A stretch of DNA of 64,000 nt from Rhodothalassiaceae bacterium. Its GTDB lineage: Bacteria > Pseudomonadota > Alphaproteobacteria > Sphingomonadales > Rhodothalassiaceae. Shown one piece after another: positions 39,402 through 51,927 of this stretch; position 1 is the stretch's first letter; each line of letters opens with the position of its first letter. The stretch is from contig BPKC01000001.1 in assembly GCA_026004935.1 (NCBI GenBank), forward strand, positions 2,243,381-2,307,380, written 5' to 3'. The position numbers were made by a program, and so were the translations under genes. The notes beneath the pieces are model-generated. The model was not told the DNA's origin. It made no database searches and was given only the letters and a program-made list of their open reading frames with translations.

Positions 39402-40259
39402 GGACCCGCCGGTCAAGCCGGCGGGTGACGAGGGGCAGAATACGCCAGCCGGTCAAGCCGGCGGCTGAGGAGAAATGGTGTACCGACTCGTGAGGACGCG
39501 AAAACCCGGCGGGGGCTGTCGCCAAGGGAGCACGCACAGGCGGGTGGTGCTCTTCCTTCCACGTCGTTCGCCGGCTTGACCGGCGAACCCATGAGGCGGT
39601 GACGAGAGCCCCGGCGCCCGTCGGCGTGCCCGCCGTCGGCTGGACCCGCCGGTCAAGCCGGCGGGTGACGTGGAAAGAAAACGGACCCGCCGGTCAAGCC
39701 GGCGGGTGACGAGGGGCAGAATACGCCAGCCGGTCAAGCCGGCGGGTGACGTGAAAAGGAAACGGACCCGCCATTCAAGCCGACGGGTGACGAAAAATGG
39801 TGTGCCAATGGGTGAGAACGCGAGAACGCGCTGAGGGCTGACGCGGAAGGAGCGCGCACAGGCGGGTGGCCGTCCCTTTTCGCGTCGTTCGCCGGCCTGA
39901 CCGGCGAACCCATGAGGCGGTGACGAGAGCCCCGGCGCCCGTCGGCGTGTCCGCCGTCGGCTGGACCCGCCGGTCGAGCCGGCGGGTGACGTGGAAAGAA
40001 ACCGGACCCGCCGGTCGAGCCGGCGGGTGACGTGGGAAGAAAACGGACCCGCCGCTCGAGCCGGCGGATGACGAAGAGAGACTGCCGGCAGGTGAAGCTC
40101 TCTTCCTCGTCATTCGCCGCGAAAGCGGCGAATCCGGATGCCATGCGTGATGGCGGCCAGCGCCGGAAACCGGCCGTCCTGCACGCTGGACCCGCCGGTC
40201 GAGCCGGCGGATGAGGAGGGAAAGAATACGACGCCCGCCGGTCGAACAGGCGGGTGACG
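39402..40259. repeat. Cluster of GC-rich extragenic palindromes (REP-like)
   Basis: About ten copies of a 23-base palindrome, ACCCGCCGG-TCRAG-CCGGCGGGT, usually followed by GACG. Clear copies lie near 39402, 39443, 39642, 39683, 39725, 39764, 39972, 40013, 40047 and 40190, with a partial one at 40232; inverted relatives (TTCGCCGG-CYTGA-CCGGCGAA) lie near 39567 and 39888. The loop is TCAAG in the left half and TCGAG in the right half. Distances vary from about 40 to 180 bases and the material between is shared, so this is not a CRISPR array. As RNA each unit would form a strong hairpin. Confidence 0.9.
39473..40110. repeat. Imperfect tandem duplication, about 321-bp period
   Basis: The block starting AAATGGTG at 39473 recurs at 39795 (offset 322), and ATGAGGCGGTGACGAGAGCC at 39591 recurs at 39912 (offset 321). 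Copies differ by scattered substitutions and a few indels. Each unit contains one inverted GAACC-type palindrome and two or three of the GACCCGCC palindromes, so the palindrome cluster grew at least partly by segmental duplication. No protein-coding frame is supported here. Confidence 0.8.
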
Positions 40260-40406
40260 AGGCGAGGGATGCACCCGCGGGCGCCCCGGCCACGGGATGA
40301 CAAGAAACCCGCCGCCCCGGGGGCGACGGGCTTCCGTGGGATGCGGTCCGGACTTGGCGGCGCCGTCGCCGCCGTTTGCAGCGCGGATGAGGAGGACGGC
40401 GCGCGC

Positions 40407-48490: not shown

Positions 48491-48673
48491 TCAGCCGTCA
48501 CCCTCGGGCTCGACATCCAGAGGATAGACGTAGGTGATCCCCGTCGGGCAGCCGATGGGCGCCCCCGCACCTGCGATCACCACCTGCTCACGCTCATCAA
48601 GCGGACGCGCGACGAGCCGTCCCAGAACCCGGTCGCGCACGCTCACTTTGATCGTTTTCTGTTGCCGCGACAT
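48491..48673 (-). CDS. RiPP precursor-like peptide D
   Basis: A 60-residue peptide. Its leader RDRVLGRLVARPLDEREQVV ends in IAGAGAP and matches the leaders of the other three small peptides here (R-x-L-G-R-x-x-A-R-x-L-x-x-x-E). The presumed core after the AGAG is short and lacks the CxxC motif: IGCPTGITYVYPLDVEPEGD. It offers Thr and several acidic side chains, the partners needed for omega-ester links made by ATP-grasp ligases. AAGGGGG lies upstream of the ATG. Last gene of the cluster. Confidence 0.75.
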   Translation of the reverse strand: MSRQQKTIKVSVRDRVLGRLVARPLDEREQVVIAGAGAPIGCPTGITYVYPLDVEPEGDG

Positions 48674-48740: not shown

Positions 48741-48929
48741 TCAACTGCCGCTTTCACCGTCAAGCGCGATATCGACCTTGCCGCCCACGCAGGTGATGCA
48801 GCTCTCGCAATTGAGCAGCCCTTTTTCATAGGGCTGGCCTGCGCCGGAAACCATTGCAACTTCACGCCCATTGAGCGGCCGAGCAAGCTGCCTGCCCAAG
48901 ACGCGAGCGCGATTTTCCGACTGCTGCAT
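48741..48929 (-). CDS. RiPP precursor-like peptide C, CxxCxxC core
   Basis: A 62-residue peptide with leader ARVLGRQLARPLNGREVAMV ending SGAGQPYEKG and core LLNCESCITCVGGKVDIALD. It is a close relative of peptide B: both share SGAG-x-PY-[ED]-K, then C-E-[ST]-C-I-T-C and GGK-[VF]-D. GAGAGGAGA lies seven bases before ATG 48929; an earlier in-frame ATG exists at 48950. Two such paralogues in a row suggest an expanded substrate set. Function is inferred from the neighbouring ATP-grasp genes. Confidence 0.8.
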   Translation of the reverse strand: MQQSENRARVLGRQLARPLNGREVAMVSGAGQPYEKGLLNCESCITCVGGKVDIALDGESGS

Positions 48930-48976
48930 GCTGATTCTCCTCTCAGCCATCATCCGCCTGTCCACACCAAAACCCC

Positions 48977-48997
48977 GCGGGAACCGCTTCTTCCCGC
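48977..48997 (-). terminator. Hairpin between peptide genes B and C
   Basis: Perfect 7-bp arms, GCGGGAA (48977-48983) and TTCCCGC (48991-48997), with a 7-base loop. On the minus strand it is followed by GGGGTTTTGG. It lies 28 bases past the stop of peptide B and could reduce read-through or protect an upstream mRNA end. Weak as a terminator. Confidence 0.4.
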
Positions 48998-49025
48998 AAT
49001 GGCGGACCCTGGGGCCGGAAAAGAA

Positions 49026-49202
49026 CTATATCTCGTTTTGCAGATCGAACTTTCCTCCGTAGCAGGTGATGCAGGTTTCACAGCCGATCAGCTCCTTGTC
49101 ATAGGGACCACCAGCACCTGAAACGAGCATCATCTCTCTTTTCGTCAACTCCCGCGCCACGCGGCGACCAAGCACCCGCATCGTCGCATCAGGTTTCTTC
49201 AT
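49026..49202 (-). CDS. RiPP precursor-like peptide B, CxxCxxC core
   Basis: A 58-residue peptide with leader MRVLGRRVARELTKREMMLV ending SGAGGPYDKE and core LIGCETCITCYGGKFDLQNE. The leader matches peptides A, C and D, and the core matches C. The binding site is excellent: GGAGGAGAGGAGCA directly upstream of ATG 49202, suggesting high expression, as is usual for RiPP precursors. The core combines three spaced cysteines with Thr and Asp/Glu, so either ester or amide crosslinks, metal binding or thioether chemistry could be imagined. Only the first is supported by the neighbouring ligases. Confidence 0.82.
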   Translation of the reverse strand: MKKPDATMRVLGRRVARELTKREMMLVSGAGGPYDKELIGCETCITCYGGKFDLQNEI

Positions 49203-49240
49203 TGCTCCTCTCCTCCTTCCTTTCCGGGTCAATCGTAGGG

Positions 49241-49324
49241 TCAACCCTCACAGGCGAAGCAGGCGGCGCAGAAACCGCAAGTCCTGCTCCCGTCGGAAAT
49301 TTCGGCCGTGCTGGCAGCCCCCAT
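49241..49324 (-). CDS. 27-residue cysteine-rich micropeptide (CxxCxxCxxC)
   Basis: A very short gene between the second ATP-grasp gene and peptide B. It has a strong binding site (GGGGAGG, five bases before the ATG) and a promoter-like sequence just upstream. The product starts MGAASTAEISDGSRT and ends CGFCAACFACEG, so four cysteines are spaced CxxCxxCxxC. It has no leader like its neighbours, but the cysteine spacing echoes the CxxCxxC cores of peptides B and C. It could be a leaderless substrate, a metal-binding helper or a regulatory peptide. No family is recognised. Confidence 0.6.
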   Translation of the reverse strand: MGAASTAEISDGSRTCGFCAACFACEG

Positions 49325-49350
49325 TGACACCTCCCCATCCGGGAATGGAC

Positions 49351-49379
49351 ATTCTGCCTTATTAGTATGCAGGAGTCAA
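49351..49379 (-). promoter_or_regulatory. Sigma70-like promoter in front of the micropeptide and peptides B-D
   Basis: On the minus strand TTGACT (49379-49374) and CAGAAT (49356-49351) are separated by exactly 17 bases. Transcription would start near 49344, about 20 bases before the micropeptide ATG. The patch is AT-rich relative to its surroundings. It would give the downstream peptide genes expression independent of the ligase genes. Confidence 0.5.
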
Positions 49380-49423: not shown

Positions 49424-50557
49424 TCAGACTTCGACAACGGCTTTGCGCCCAGCTGCAATGTCGGCAAGAGGGATGAGAGACCCTTCCGGTCGGTAGACGA
49501 ACTCGGGATCGCGACTCAGCAGGAAGCGGCAGAAGGCATCCAGCAATGGGACCTCTGGCAGGCGGAACTCGATCCACAGCCATTGGCCCATCTCGTTGAC
49601 TTCCAGAAAAACGGTGTCACCCTCGGGGGTCACAATCAGGTCGAAGCAACCGAAGACGATCCCCAGCATCCTCATGACGCGTCGACAGGCTTCGACGACC
49701 GCCGGCGGCAGCGTGACGCGCGCAAGCGGCAACTCCTCGGGAAAGATGTTGCGCCAATCTACGGATCCATCGGGATGGCGCTGCGAATCGATGCGGATCG
49801 CAAAAGCCTGCGCGCCCATGATGGTCAGGCGTACCTCGTATGCCTTCGGGACACGGCGCTGGAGGATGTTGGGTGTCGCGCGCAACAGCTCGTCATCGGG
49901 CAGATCCTCCTCCGAGACCGGACTTGCGAGCGTCGCCAGCATACCTCCGTCCTCTTCCCAGCTGTTGACGGCGAACGGCTTGTACACGACGCCCGCGTCG
50001 CGATTCCGACGCAGGAACGCGCGGATCTGGGCGGGATCATTGGTAACGATGGTCTCGGGGATCGTGAGCCCGGCCGCCCGCGCCACCTGCAGCTGAAGGA
50101 TCTTGCTGTCGGCGCGTCGGGCAGCGGCAAAGGGATTGACCCAGAAGGCGCCTGGTGCCGCCGCATGCCACAGAGCATTGTGGAAAAACCGCAGCTCGCG
50201 CGCGACAAATGCACGGTCCCGTTGATCGACCACCGCAGGCGGCTGCGGCATCCGGATTCGGCGTGCCCAGACGACATCGGCGTCGCCCAGCTCCGCTGCG
50301 CCCGCTTCATGCGCATATTCTTTGAGCGCGCGCGCCTCATCATCATCGCGCTGCGCTTCTTCGGCCGTCTCTTCGCCTGGCTCCAGCCGCATGTGCCAGG
50401 AAGAATCCCCATCCGGCCCCAATGTGATCGTCTGGCGGAGATGGGCGGGGTAGGCAGAAGTATAGAGCAGGACGACCTCGTGACCGAGCCTTTCGAGGCC
50501 CCGTCGCACCGCCCGCGCGTGCACGTCTTCCGCGATGGTGGCGATGACAACCTTCAT
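49424..50557 (-). CDS. ATP-grasp peptide ligase, graspetide-synthetase-like (second)
   Basis: A 377-residue ATP-grasp protein like the MvdC/MvdD-type enzymes that join Ser/Thr or Lys side chains to Asp/Glu in precursor peptides. It has an N-terminal Rossmann-like half (MKVVIATIAEDVHARAV), DADVVWARRIR (98-102 region), FWVNPFAAARRADSK (138-152), ETIVTNDPAQIRAFL (168-182), VVYKPFAVNSWEED (ATP-binding Lys 193) and VFLEVNEMGQWLW (316-328, metal ligands Glu319 and Asn321). ATG 50557 overlaps the preceding ligase stop as ATGA. No transporter or protease gene is beside it. Confidence 0.85.
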   Translation of the reverse strand: MKVVIATIAEDVHARAVRRGLERLGHEVVLLYTSAYPAHLRQTITLGPDGDSSWHMRLEPGEETAEEAQRDDDEARALKEYAHEAGAAELGDADVVWARRIRMPQPPAVVDQRDRAFVARELRFFHNALWHAAAPGAFWVNPFAAARRADSKILQLQVARAAGLTIPETIVTNDPAQIRAFLRRNRDAGVVYKPFAVNSWEEDGGMLATLASPVSEEDLPDDELLRATPNILQRRVPKAYEVRLTIMGAQAFAIRIDSQRHPDGSVDWRNIFPEELPLARVTLPPAVVEACRRVMRMLGIVFGCFDLIVTPEGDTVFLEVNEMGQWLWIEFRLPEVPLLDAFCRFLLSRDPEFVYRPEGSLIPLADIAAGRKAVVEV

Positions 50558-51672
50558 GCCGGCGCTTCCTCCCTCTTCGGTTTCAGGAATCTTTCGAGCC
50601 TGAGACTGCGTCGAAACGCCTGCGTGGCCCCTGAGAATCCGGCATCCGCCTCCCACAACAGACCGCAGAAATGGGCGAGCATCGGCAGCTCCGGACAGGC
50701 CTCCTCCAGCCAGAGGAACTGGCCGGCCTCGTTGACTTCGAGAAAGACCCACTCGCCCTCGGCAGTGCGGACAAGATCAAGGCAGCCGAACCGCAGATCG
50801 AGACTGTCCATGAGGCGCCGCACCGCATCTTCCACCGGGGCAGGCAGATTCACGGGGGCCACGGTAAGCCATGAGGGGTGAACCCTCTTCCAATCGATCG
50901 CACCGGCTGGAAGCTCGGCCGAAACCTCGGCCGCGACCACGCAGTGGCCGAAGACCACCACCCGGACATCCGCGACCTTCTCGATGACCTCCTGATAGAT
51001 GCCCGGCGCTGCTTCCAGCATCGCGCTGTCGCCAAGAAAATCCGTCGTTACGACTTCGGCGTGGACTGCCAGTCGCGCATCCTGTTCCTCCCAATTGAAG
51101 GGGCCGAAGGGCTTGTAGACCGCGCGACCTCCAAGGGTGGACACGAATGCCCGGATGCGCTCGGGCTCATTGCTCATCAGCGTGCGGGGGATCTTCCAGC
51201 CCATGTCGGCCGCGGCACGCAATTGCCGGGCCTTGCGCTCGGCCTCGCGGGCGACCCTCGGCCCGTTGACCCAGAAAGCCCGCGGCCACGCGACCGACAG
51301 CGCGCTCTGCCAGAACCGCTCCGCCTCTCGTTCGGCAAACCGCCTGTCATCGGGATCTGCGAGCGCGCTGCGCGCCAGGCCGGTACGCCGCAGCCAGACG
51401 CGCAGTCCTTCCCCGCTTGCCGCGAAATCAACGCATGACGGATCTATGACACGCTCTGATGGTGCCGGTTTCTCTGCGATACCCCTGAGAGGATCAATAA
51501 GCAGCGAATGTGGTTCACCGCTCAGCAACCGAGTCGTGTCTACCGCAGCCACCGCCCCGCCGAGGGCCTGCCATGCGGATGACACGACATGCGCATGCGT
51601 GTCGCCGTCGGAGGTAAAAACGACGAGAGTGGGGCCGCCGTCATCTCGAGCGCCGCCACGACACCCAGCCAT
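50554..51672 (-). CDS. ATP-grasp peptide ligase, graspetide-synthetase-like (first)
   Basis: A 372-residue paralogue of the second ligase. It keeps the key pieces: LRVWLRRTG, FWVNGPRVAREAERKARQL, IPRTLMSNEPERIRAFV, AVYKPFGPFNWEE (ATP-binding Lys) and WVFLEVNEAGQFLWLE (metal-binding Glu/Asn). The N-terminal half TLVVFTSDGDTHAHVV is shorter and differs from the second ligase. ATG 51672 has a run of G just upstream. Two non-identical ligases in tandem suggest sequential or differently placed ring closures on the same precursor, as in microviridin-type systems; the ester/amide split is not decidable here. Confidence 0.85.
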   Translation of the reverse strand: MAGCRGGARDDGGPTLVVFTSDGDTHAHVVSSAWQALGGAVAAVDTTRLLSGEPHSLLIDPLRGIAEKPAPSERVIDPSCVDFAASGEGLRVWLRRTGLARSALADPDDRRFAEREAERFWQSALSVAWPRAFWVNGPRVAREAERKARQLRAAADMGWKIPRTLMSNEPERIRAFVSTLGGRAVYKPFGPFNWEEQDARLAVHAEVVTTDFLGDSAMLEAAPGIYQEVIEKVADVRVVVFGHCVVAAEVSAELPAGAIDWKRVHPSWLTVAPVNLPAPVEDAVRRLMDSLDLRFGCLDLVRTAEGEWVFLEVNEAGQFLWLEEACPELPMLAHFCGLLWEADAGFSGATQAFRRSLRLERFLKPKREEAPA

Positions 51673-51732: not shown

Positions 51733-51927
51733 TCAATAGCGCGAGCCGGAGGAGTCGCATTTGACGACGAGATTGCCGTTCTCGTCATAGTAGGCCGTCG
51801 TCGCGAAGGTTTGCCCTGAACAGAACTGATCGAAATACGACTCGCCGCCTGAAACGCGAGCGACCTCCTCCTCCGCAAGCGGCCGTGCCAGCCTGCGAGC
51901 CAGCGTCTGCGTGCGTGCGTCAATCAT
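51733..51927 (-). CDS. RiPP precursor-like peptide A
   Basis: A 64-residue peptide, first gene of the cluster. Its leader RTQTLARRLARPLAEEEVAR ends VSGGESYFDQ, matching the leader pattern of B-D. The core differs: FCSGQTFATTAYYDENGNLV then KCDSSGSRY, rich in Thr and Ser with Asp and Glu, which suits omega-ester formation by the ligases encoded just downstream. AAGGGGAAA lies seven bases before ATG 51927; the frame is open 27 codons further without a similar signal. Confidence 0.8.
   Translation of the reverse strand: MIDARTQTLARRLARPLAEEEVARVSGGESYFDQFCSGQTFATTAYYDENGNLVVKCDSSGSRY

Follow-up and report, generated by a model that had tools for sequence, protein, structure and literature searches.

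A 27-codon open reading frame (ORF; positions 49241–49324, minus strand) lies in the window, the 64,000-nucleotide stretch of DNA analyzed here, among genes that are all read from the minus strand in the order precursor 0, ligase A, ligase B, micropeptide, and precursors 1, 2, and 3. The genes for the two ATP-grasp ligases (ligase A, 50554–51672; ligase B, 49424–50557; both minus strand) overlap, and their products are of the graspetide-ligase type and related to MdnB/MdnC. Both ligases match solved graspetide ligases and their relatives (5ig8, 5ig9, 7m4s, 7mgv, 9bou, and 7drm), with E values of 7.7e-37 for ligase B against 5ig9 and 2.4e-25 for ligase A against 7m4s. Their matches to TIGR04187, TIGR04185, and TIGR04184 are strong yet far under the cut-offs (best 201.7 bits, against 350). 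The cluster genes scanned against Pfam and NCBIfam are ATP-grasps and short peptides. An earlier reading made from the sequence alone (the sequence-only reading) had placed the micropeptide within a peptide-maturation cluster, and the presence of two ATP-grasp ligases and four leader-bearing precursors on one strand bears this out; by homology, the surroundings are a graspetide-type cluster, which is a known kind. The cluster shares with graspetide (omega-ester peptide) clusters of the MdnB/MdnC type its two ATP-grasp ligases and its group of short precursors that share one leader, but it differs in having ligases so far under the NCBIfam cut-offs and in having an extra leaderless ORF with four Cys codons at the head of its second precursor group.

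A leader with the motif LxRxxxRxLxxxExxxxxG, terminating in small residues, is common to the four precursors of the window and to one precursor from G001, the sole other genome of the genus. Precursor 0 (51733–51927, minus) lies ahead of the ligases. Precursor 1 (49026–49202, minus) combines the leader with a core containing CETCITC, and its product has three Cys residues. Precursor 2 (48741–48929, minus) is a duplicate of precursor 1 (72% over 81 nt) with CESCITC in its core, and precursor 3 (48491–48673, minus) has the same leader and a core with one Cys. A hairpin between precursors 1 and 2 (48930–49030, minus; z −2.62, with 1 of 200 shuffles equally stable) may stabilize or separate messages. 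Several precursors that cannot be aligned to one another are reported from graspetide loci in the part of PMC8939145 that we draw on.

The micropeptide ORF begins 99 nt past ligase B and translates as MGAASTAEISDGSRTCGFCAACFACEG* (minus strand, 49324–49241), with CxxCxxCxxC within its last 12 residues. Its ribosome-binding site, GGGGAGG (49330–49336, minus), stands 5 bases ahead of the ATG (49324–49322), and the gap behind ligase B also holds a sigma-70-like sequence in which a −35-like TTGACT (49374–49379, minus) and a −10-like CAGAAT (49351–49356, minus) are separated by a 17-nt spacer. The 84-base ORF, the GGGGAGG, and the TTGACT-N17-CAGAAT are thus all where the sequence-only reading had put them. 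Its further claim, that the gene has its own promoter, goes beyond the location of this sequence, which was called from consensus match only (9/12 agreement); the match is the sole sigma-70-like one on either strand in 4 kb, for which shuffles lead one to expect 0.5. Transcription would start about 7 bases past CAGAAT, leaving an untranslated leader of about 20 nt before the micropeptide ATG. At the other end of the ORF, a direct repeat, TTGACCC-N5-TTGACCC (49226–49244, minus), spans the stop codon just ahead of the precursor 1 ribosome-binding site, where a small stem is possible. An Rfam scan found nothing. As had been proposed, the 27 residues do not contain the leader motif shared by the flanking peptides, and the product has zero matches in Pfam and NCBIfam.

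To ask how often such a frame arises by chance, we shuffled the 221-nt gap from ligase B to precursor 1 20,000 times, preserving dinucleotides and reading the coding strand only. An ORF of at least 20 codons appeared in 17,815 of the shuffles, and one with GGAGG in 917; per 64 kb, 5 ORFs of 20–60 aa with GGAGG were observed, against 6.6 in simulated DNA. Taken alone, the ribosome-binding site is weak evidence for a gene. An ORF with CxxCxxC was found in 25 of the 20,000 shuffles, one with both CxxCxxC and GGAGG in a single shuffle, and one with CxxCxxCxxC in none, and the six frames of the window contain CxxCxxCxxC once, against 0.117 per 64 kb of simulated DNA; these figures are not clean probabilities, because the Cys pattern was picked post hoc, after it had been seen. 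They agree with the proposal that the frame did not arise by chance.

The opposing view, that there is no gene and that a chance frame happens to stand ahead of the precursor operon, draws on the frequency with which ORFs of this length acquire GGAGG, on the lack of any conservation seen among 296 genomes of the order, and on codon-position GC contents that are not gene-like (0.50, 0.77, and 0.73, whereas the second position in neighboring genes is at 0.44–0.51). The codon GC is not decisive, since mycobacterial Cys-rich regulatory small ORFs are also reported, in the portion of PMC9094748 consulted, to lack the usual codon-position skew. Against this view stands the absence of the Cys ladder from every shuffle of the gap. 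We consider it quite improbable that the locus holds no gene, and the sequence statistics make a chance reading frame very unlikely.

The micropeptide was also said to repeat the cysteine spacing of the flanking peptides. This is true of precursors 1 and 2, which carry CE[TS]CITC and whose CxxCxxC the micropeptide exceeds by one Cys, but not of the other two precursors of the window, which are without CxxCxxC. When the micropeptide was aligned locally, as protein, to precursors 1 and 2, its score was equalled by 57 and 37, respectively, of 1000 shuffles that moved all codons, and when the Cys residues were held fixed this rose to 607 and 492 of 1000, so the Cys pattern is all that the micropeptide and the precursors have in common. 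Descent of the micropeptide from a neighboring precursor was unsupported beyond Cys. A related possibility is that the ORF is translated and has no function, being either newly arisen or a relic, such as what is left of an earlier precursor core. Such an origin would suit an orphan in all collections searched and a locus that is in flux, as the duplication of the precursors indicates; an ORF without function should not have kept an intact frame together with a ribosome-binding site and a promoter-like site, and the DNA of the micropeptide resembles that of the precursors no better than codon shuffles do. On balance we find a functionless ORF improbable.

We searched for relatives at several taxonomic depths. 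G001 has the cluster, with a leader-bearing precursor and a ligase A homologue that is 42% identical, but its contig (G001:C273) carries no more of ligase B than the first 32 residues (78%) and stops before the micropeptide would begin; searches of G001 with the micropeptide and with precursor 1 gave no match, the contig stopping inside ligase B. The micropeptide query, run on the order (296 genomes), returned its own genome at 3.5e-13 and found no homologue: 68 genomes had matches at E ≤ 1, and the best of these outside the own genome (E 0.0075) is noise, being about the yield expected by chance from 296 genomes. No match was found in plasmids with either the micropeptide or precursor 1, or in viral contigs with the exact degenerate pattern of the micropeptide. 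The precursor 1 query reached E 0.55 in one genome of the family (G005), which we judged to be noise, and a precursor profile matched 9 of 384 other genomes in the class sample, all at E 0.001–0.01, with nothing convincing beyond the own genome.

Relatives of the ligases are few: they were present in 1 of 6 other genomes in the family sample and 3 of 295 in the order sample (both at 1e-25), in 1 of 397 in the phylum sample (1e-30), and, with ligase B as the query, in 1 of 384 in the class sample (1e-35). A scan of genome contigs for related ligases yielded 10 loci, ligase A matched 7 plasmid records, and ligase B had 2 matches in phages; viral contigs contained no related ligases. We then compared 23 other ATP-grasp loci (L011–L018, L020, L024–L033, L064, L065, L067, and L068; overlapping copies, namely L019, L021–L023, L063, and the short search loci, were excluded), 22 of them informative because L029, from G001, is without downstream sequence. 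Looking up to 2.5 kb away on the strand of the ligase, we found no leaderless ORF with CxxCxxCxxC at any of them. CDGCGGC occurs in a leader-bearing precursor at the Pelomonas locus L015. Across the collections searched, the micropeptide is an orphan and, judging from its sequence, apparently a real small gene.

Five of these loci, L024–L028, are further graspetide-type clusters of the window's own genome (2.9 Mb), located on G000:C1 near 2.75, 1.00, 1.04, 1.10, and 0.73 Mb, respectively, and each pairs an ATP-grasp gene that matches TIGR04187 with an adjacent precursor that has a leader and contains Cys. Proteins of 301–420 aa with no Pfam match are encoded beside the ligases at L024:6240–7400, L026:8100–9362, and perhaps L027:8016–8921; those of L024 and L027 have no NCBIfam match either, and those of L024 and L026 are 34% identical over 257 residues, making an unnamed partner family possible. 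The ATP-grasp frame is split over two overlapping frames at L027:6943–7919 and L028:6887–7835, which we attribute to frameshifts or sequencing errors. Dispersed intergenic repeats with the translations RRLDRRV and PARPAGP occur at about 39770–40300 of the window, and similar ones at about 8865–9689 of L024. Locus L068, on a Legionella adelaidensis plasmid (NZ_LR134435.1), combines three leader-bearing precursors, an ATP-grasp ligase annotated as hypothetical, an unknown protein, and genes for HlyD-type and peptidase-ABC transporters, and is apparently a complete, export-equipped cluster of the same graspetide type.

The ORF might matter for its translation rather than for its product. As a cis-acting upstream ORF, it would use its Cys codons to gauge the supply of cysteinyl-tRNA, or would merely couple translation, the position of the ribosome opening or closing the precursor 1 ribosome-binding site while the peptide itself had no task. 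The micropeptide is indeed the first ORF past the promoter-like site and lies 38 nt ahead of precursor 1. Folding predictions leave little of the precursor 1 ribosome-binding site unpaired (0.31), nearly all of it being paired to the stretch of Cys codons. With a ribosome placed at the second, third, or fourth Cys codon or at the stop codon, the site is predicted to become free (0.67–0.78), but not with one placed at the first Cys codon. However, 31 controls in each of two sets of 250, one synonymous and one codon-shuffled, showed an equal gain (about 12%), the sequestration of the site ranks 94/1000 among synonymous variants, the predicted freeing weakens or shifts with the choice of transcript end, and the fold is not better than that of shuffles (z +0.95). 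Attenuation of the terminator type was rejected because there is no terminator-like site between the micropeptide ORF and precursor 1, the notable hairpin at 48930–49030 being ahead of precursor 2.

A precedent for sensing by Cys codons exists in mycobacteria, in which polycysteine small ORFs are described as cysteine-responsive attenuators (Canestrari 2020, as relayed in the parts of PMC9094748 and PMC9031893 consulted). Like the micropeptide, these are short Cys-rich ORFs directly ahead of possible target genes, and their codon GC skew is likewise not positive (PMC9094748, same part). According to those accounts, they have contiguous Cys codons on leaderless mRNAs, whereas the micropeptide comes with a ribosome-binding site and, by inference, 20 nt of untranslated leader, and has a Cys at every third residue, a regular spacing that an upstream ORF leaves unexplained. 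We regard cis action as unlikely, though it is the main rival of the reading favored below; were the ORF to sense Cys in this manner, cysteine supply would be tied to the production of a Cys-bearing RiPP.

CruR, a copper-responsive upstream ORF of Bordetella (DUF2946), is also the first ORF of its operon and also has a CxxC, but it is far longer than the 27-residue micropeptide, with the CXXC at residues 90–93 followed by an arrest motif, as described in the part of PMC9426467 that we draw on. The micropeptide has no match to DUF2946 in Pfam. When translation reaches the stop codon, a chain of 27 residues has not yet emerged from the ribosome tunnel, which makes metal sensing by the nascent chain unlikely, and on this ground of length we rejected a CruR-like role. 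The methanobactin precursor MbnA is a short peptide that, like the micropeptide, ends in closely spaced Cys residues; MbnA differs in carrying a leader and in having enzymes dedicated to it; the micropeptide is leaderless.

The reading that we tentatively favor, at somewhat less than an even chance, is that the ORF is a real small gene, that it is translated, and that its leaderless product functions as a peptide within the cluster. A transcript would start within the cluster, with the micropeptide as its first cistron, and would also supply the three downstream precursors; the row of thiols, spaced like those of two precursor cores, would work alongside the processed cores, and the peptide could be their partner, through a metal or disulfides, or else an atypical substrate. 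In favor of such a product are the Cys ladder, absent from the shuffled gaps and unique in the six frames of the window, the correct placement of the promoter-like match and the ribosome-binding site, the strand shared with both graspetide-type ligases and all four precursors, the Cys spacing in common with precursors 1 and 2, and the reported presence of mutually unalignable precursors at graspetide loci (PMC8939145). Counting against it are the lack of homologues in the order genomes, in plasmids, and at the other ligase loci, the missing leader, the restriction of the resemblance to the Cys pattern, and a codon-position GC unlike that of the neighbors.

With respect to graspetide precursors, the micropeptide has the position beside an ATP-grasp ligase and lacks the leader, and without a leader it is not an ordinary substrate. 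Adding the leader peptide separately is, according to the part of PMC13003496 consulted, an established way in vitro to get RiPP enzymes onto a leaderless core. It is a doubtful suggestion that the four-Cys ladder is matured by the ATP-grasp pair with the neighbors' leaders acting in trans, or that it binds metal together with the CxxCxxC graspetides. In the open-licence literature we found no paper joining graspetides with CxxCxxC or with leaderless Cys peptides, and no description of a two-peptide, thiol-based product of this kind. For now, the setting is familiar and the micropeptide, as a small gene, is an orphan; it is not yet a discovery. If it is translated and used, peptide-maturation clusters can hold leaderless Cys peptides that escape both gene callers and leader-based mining.
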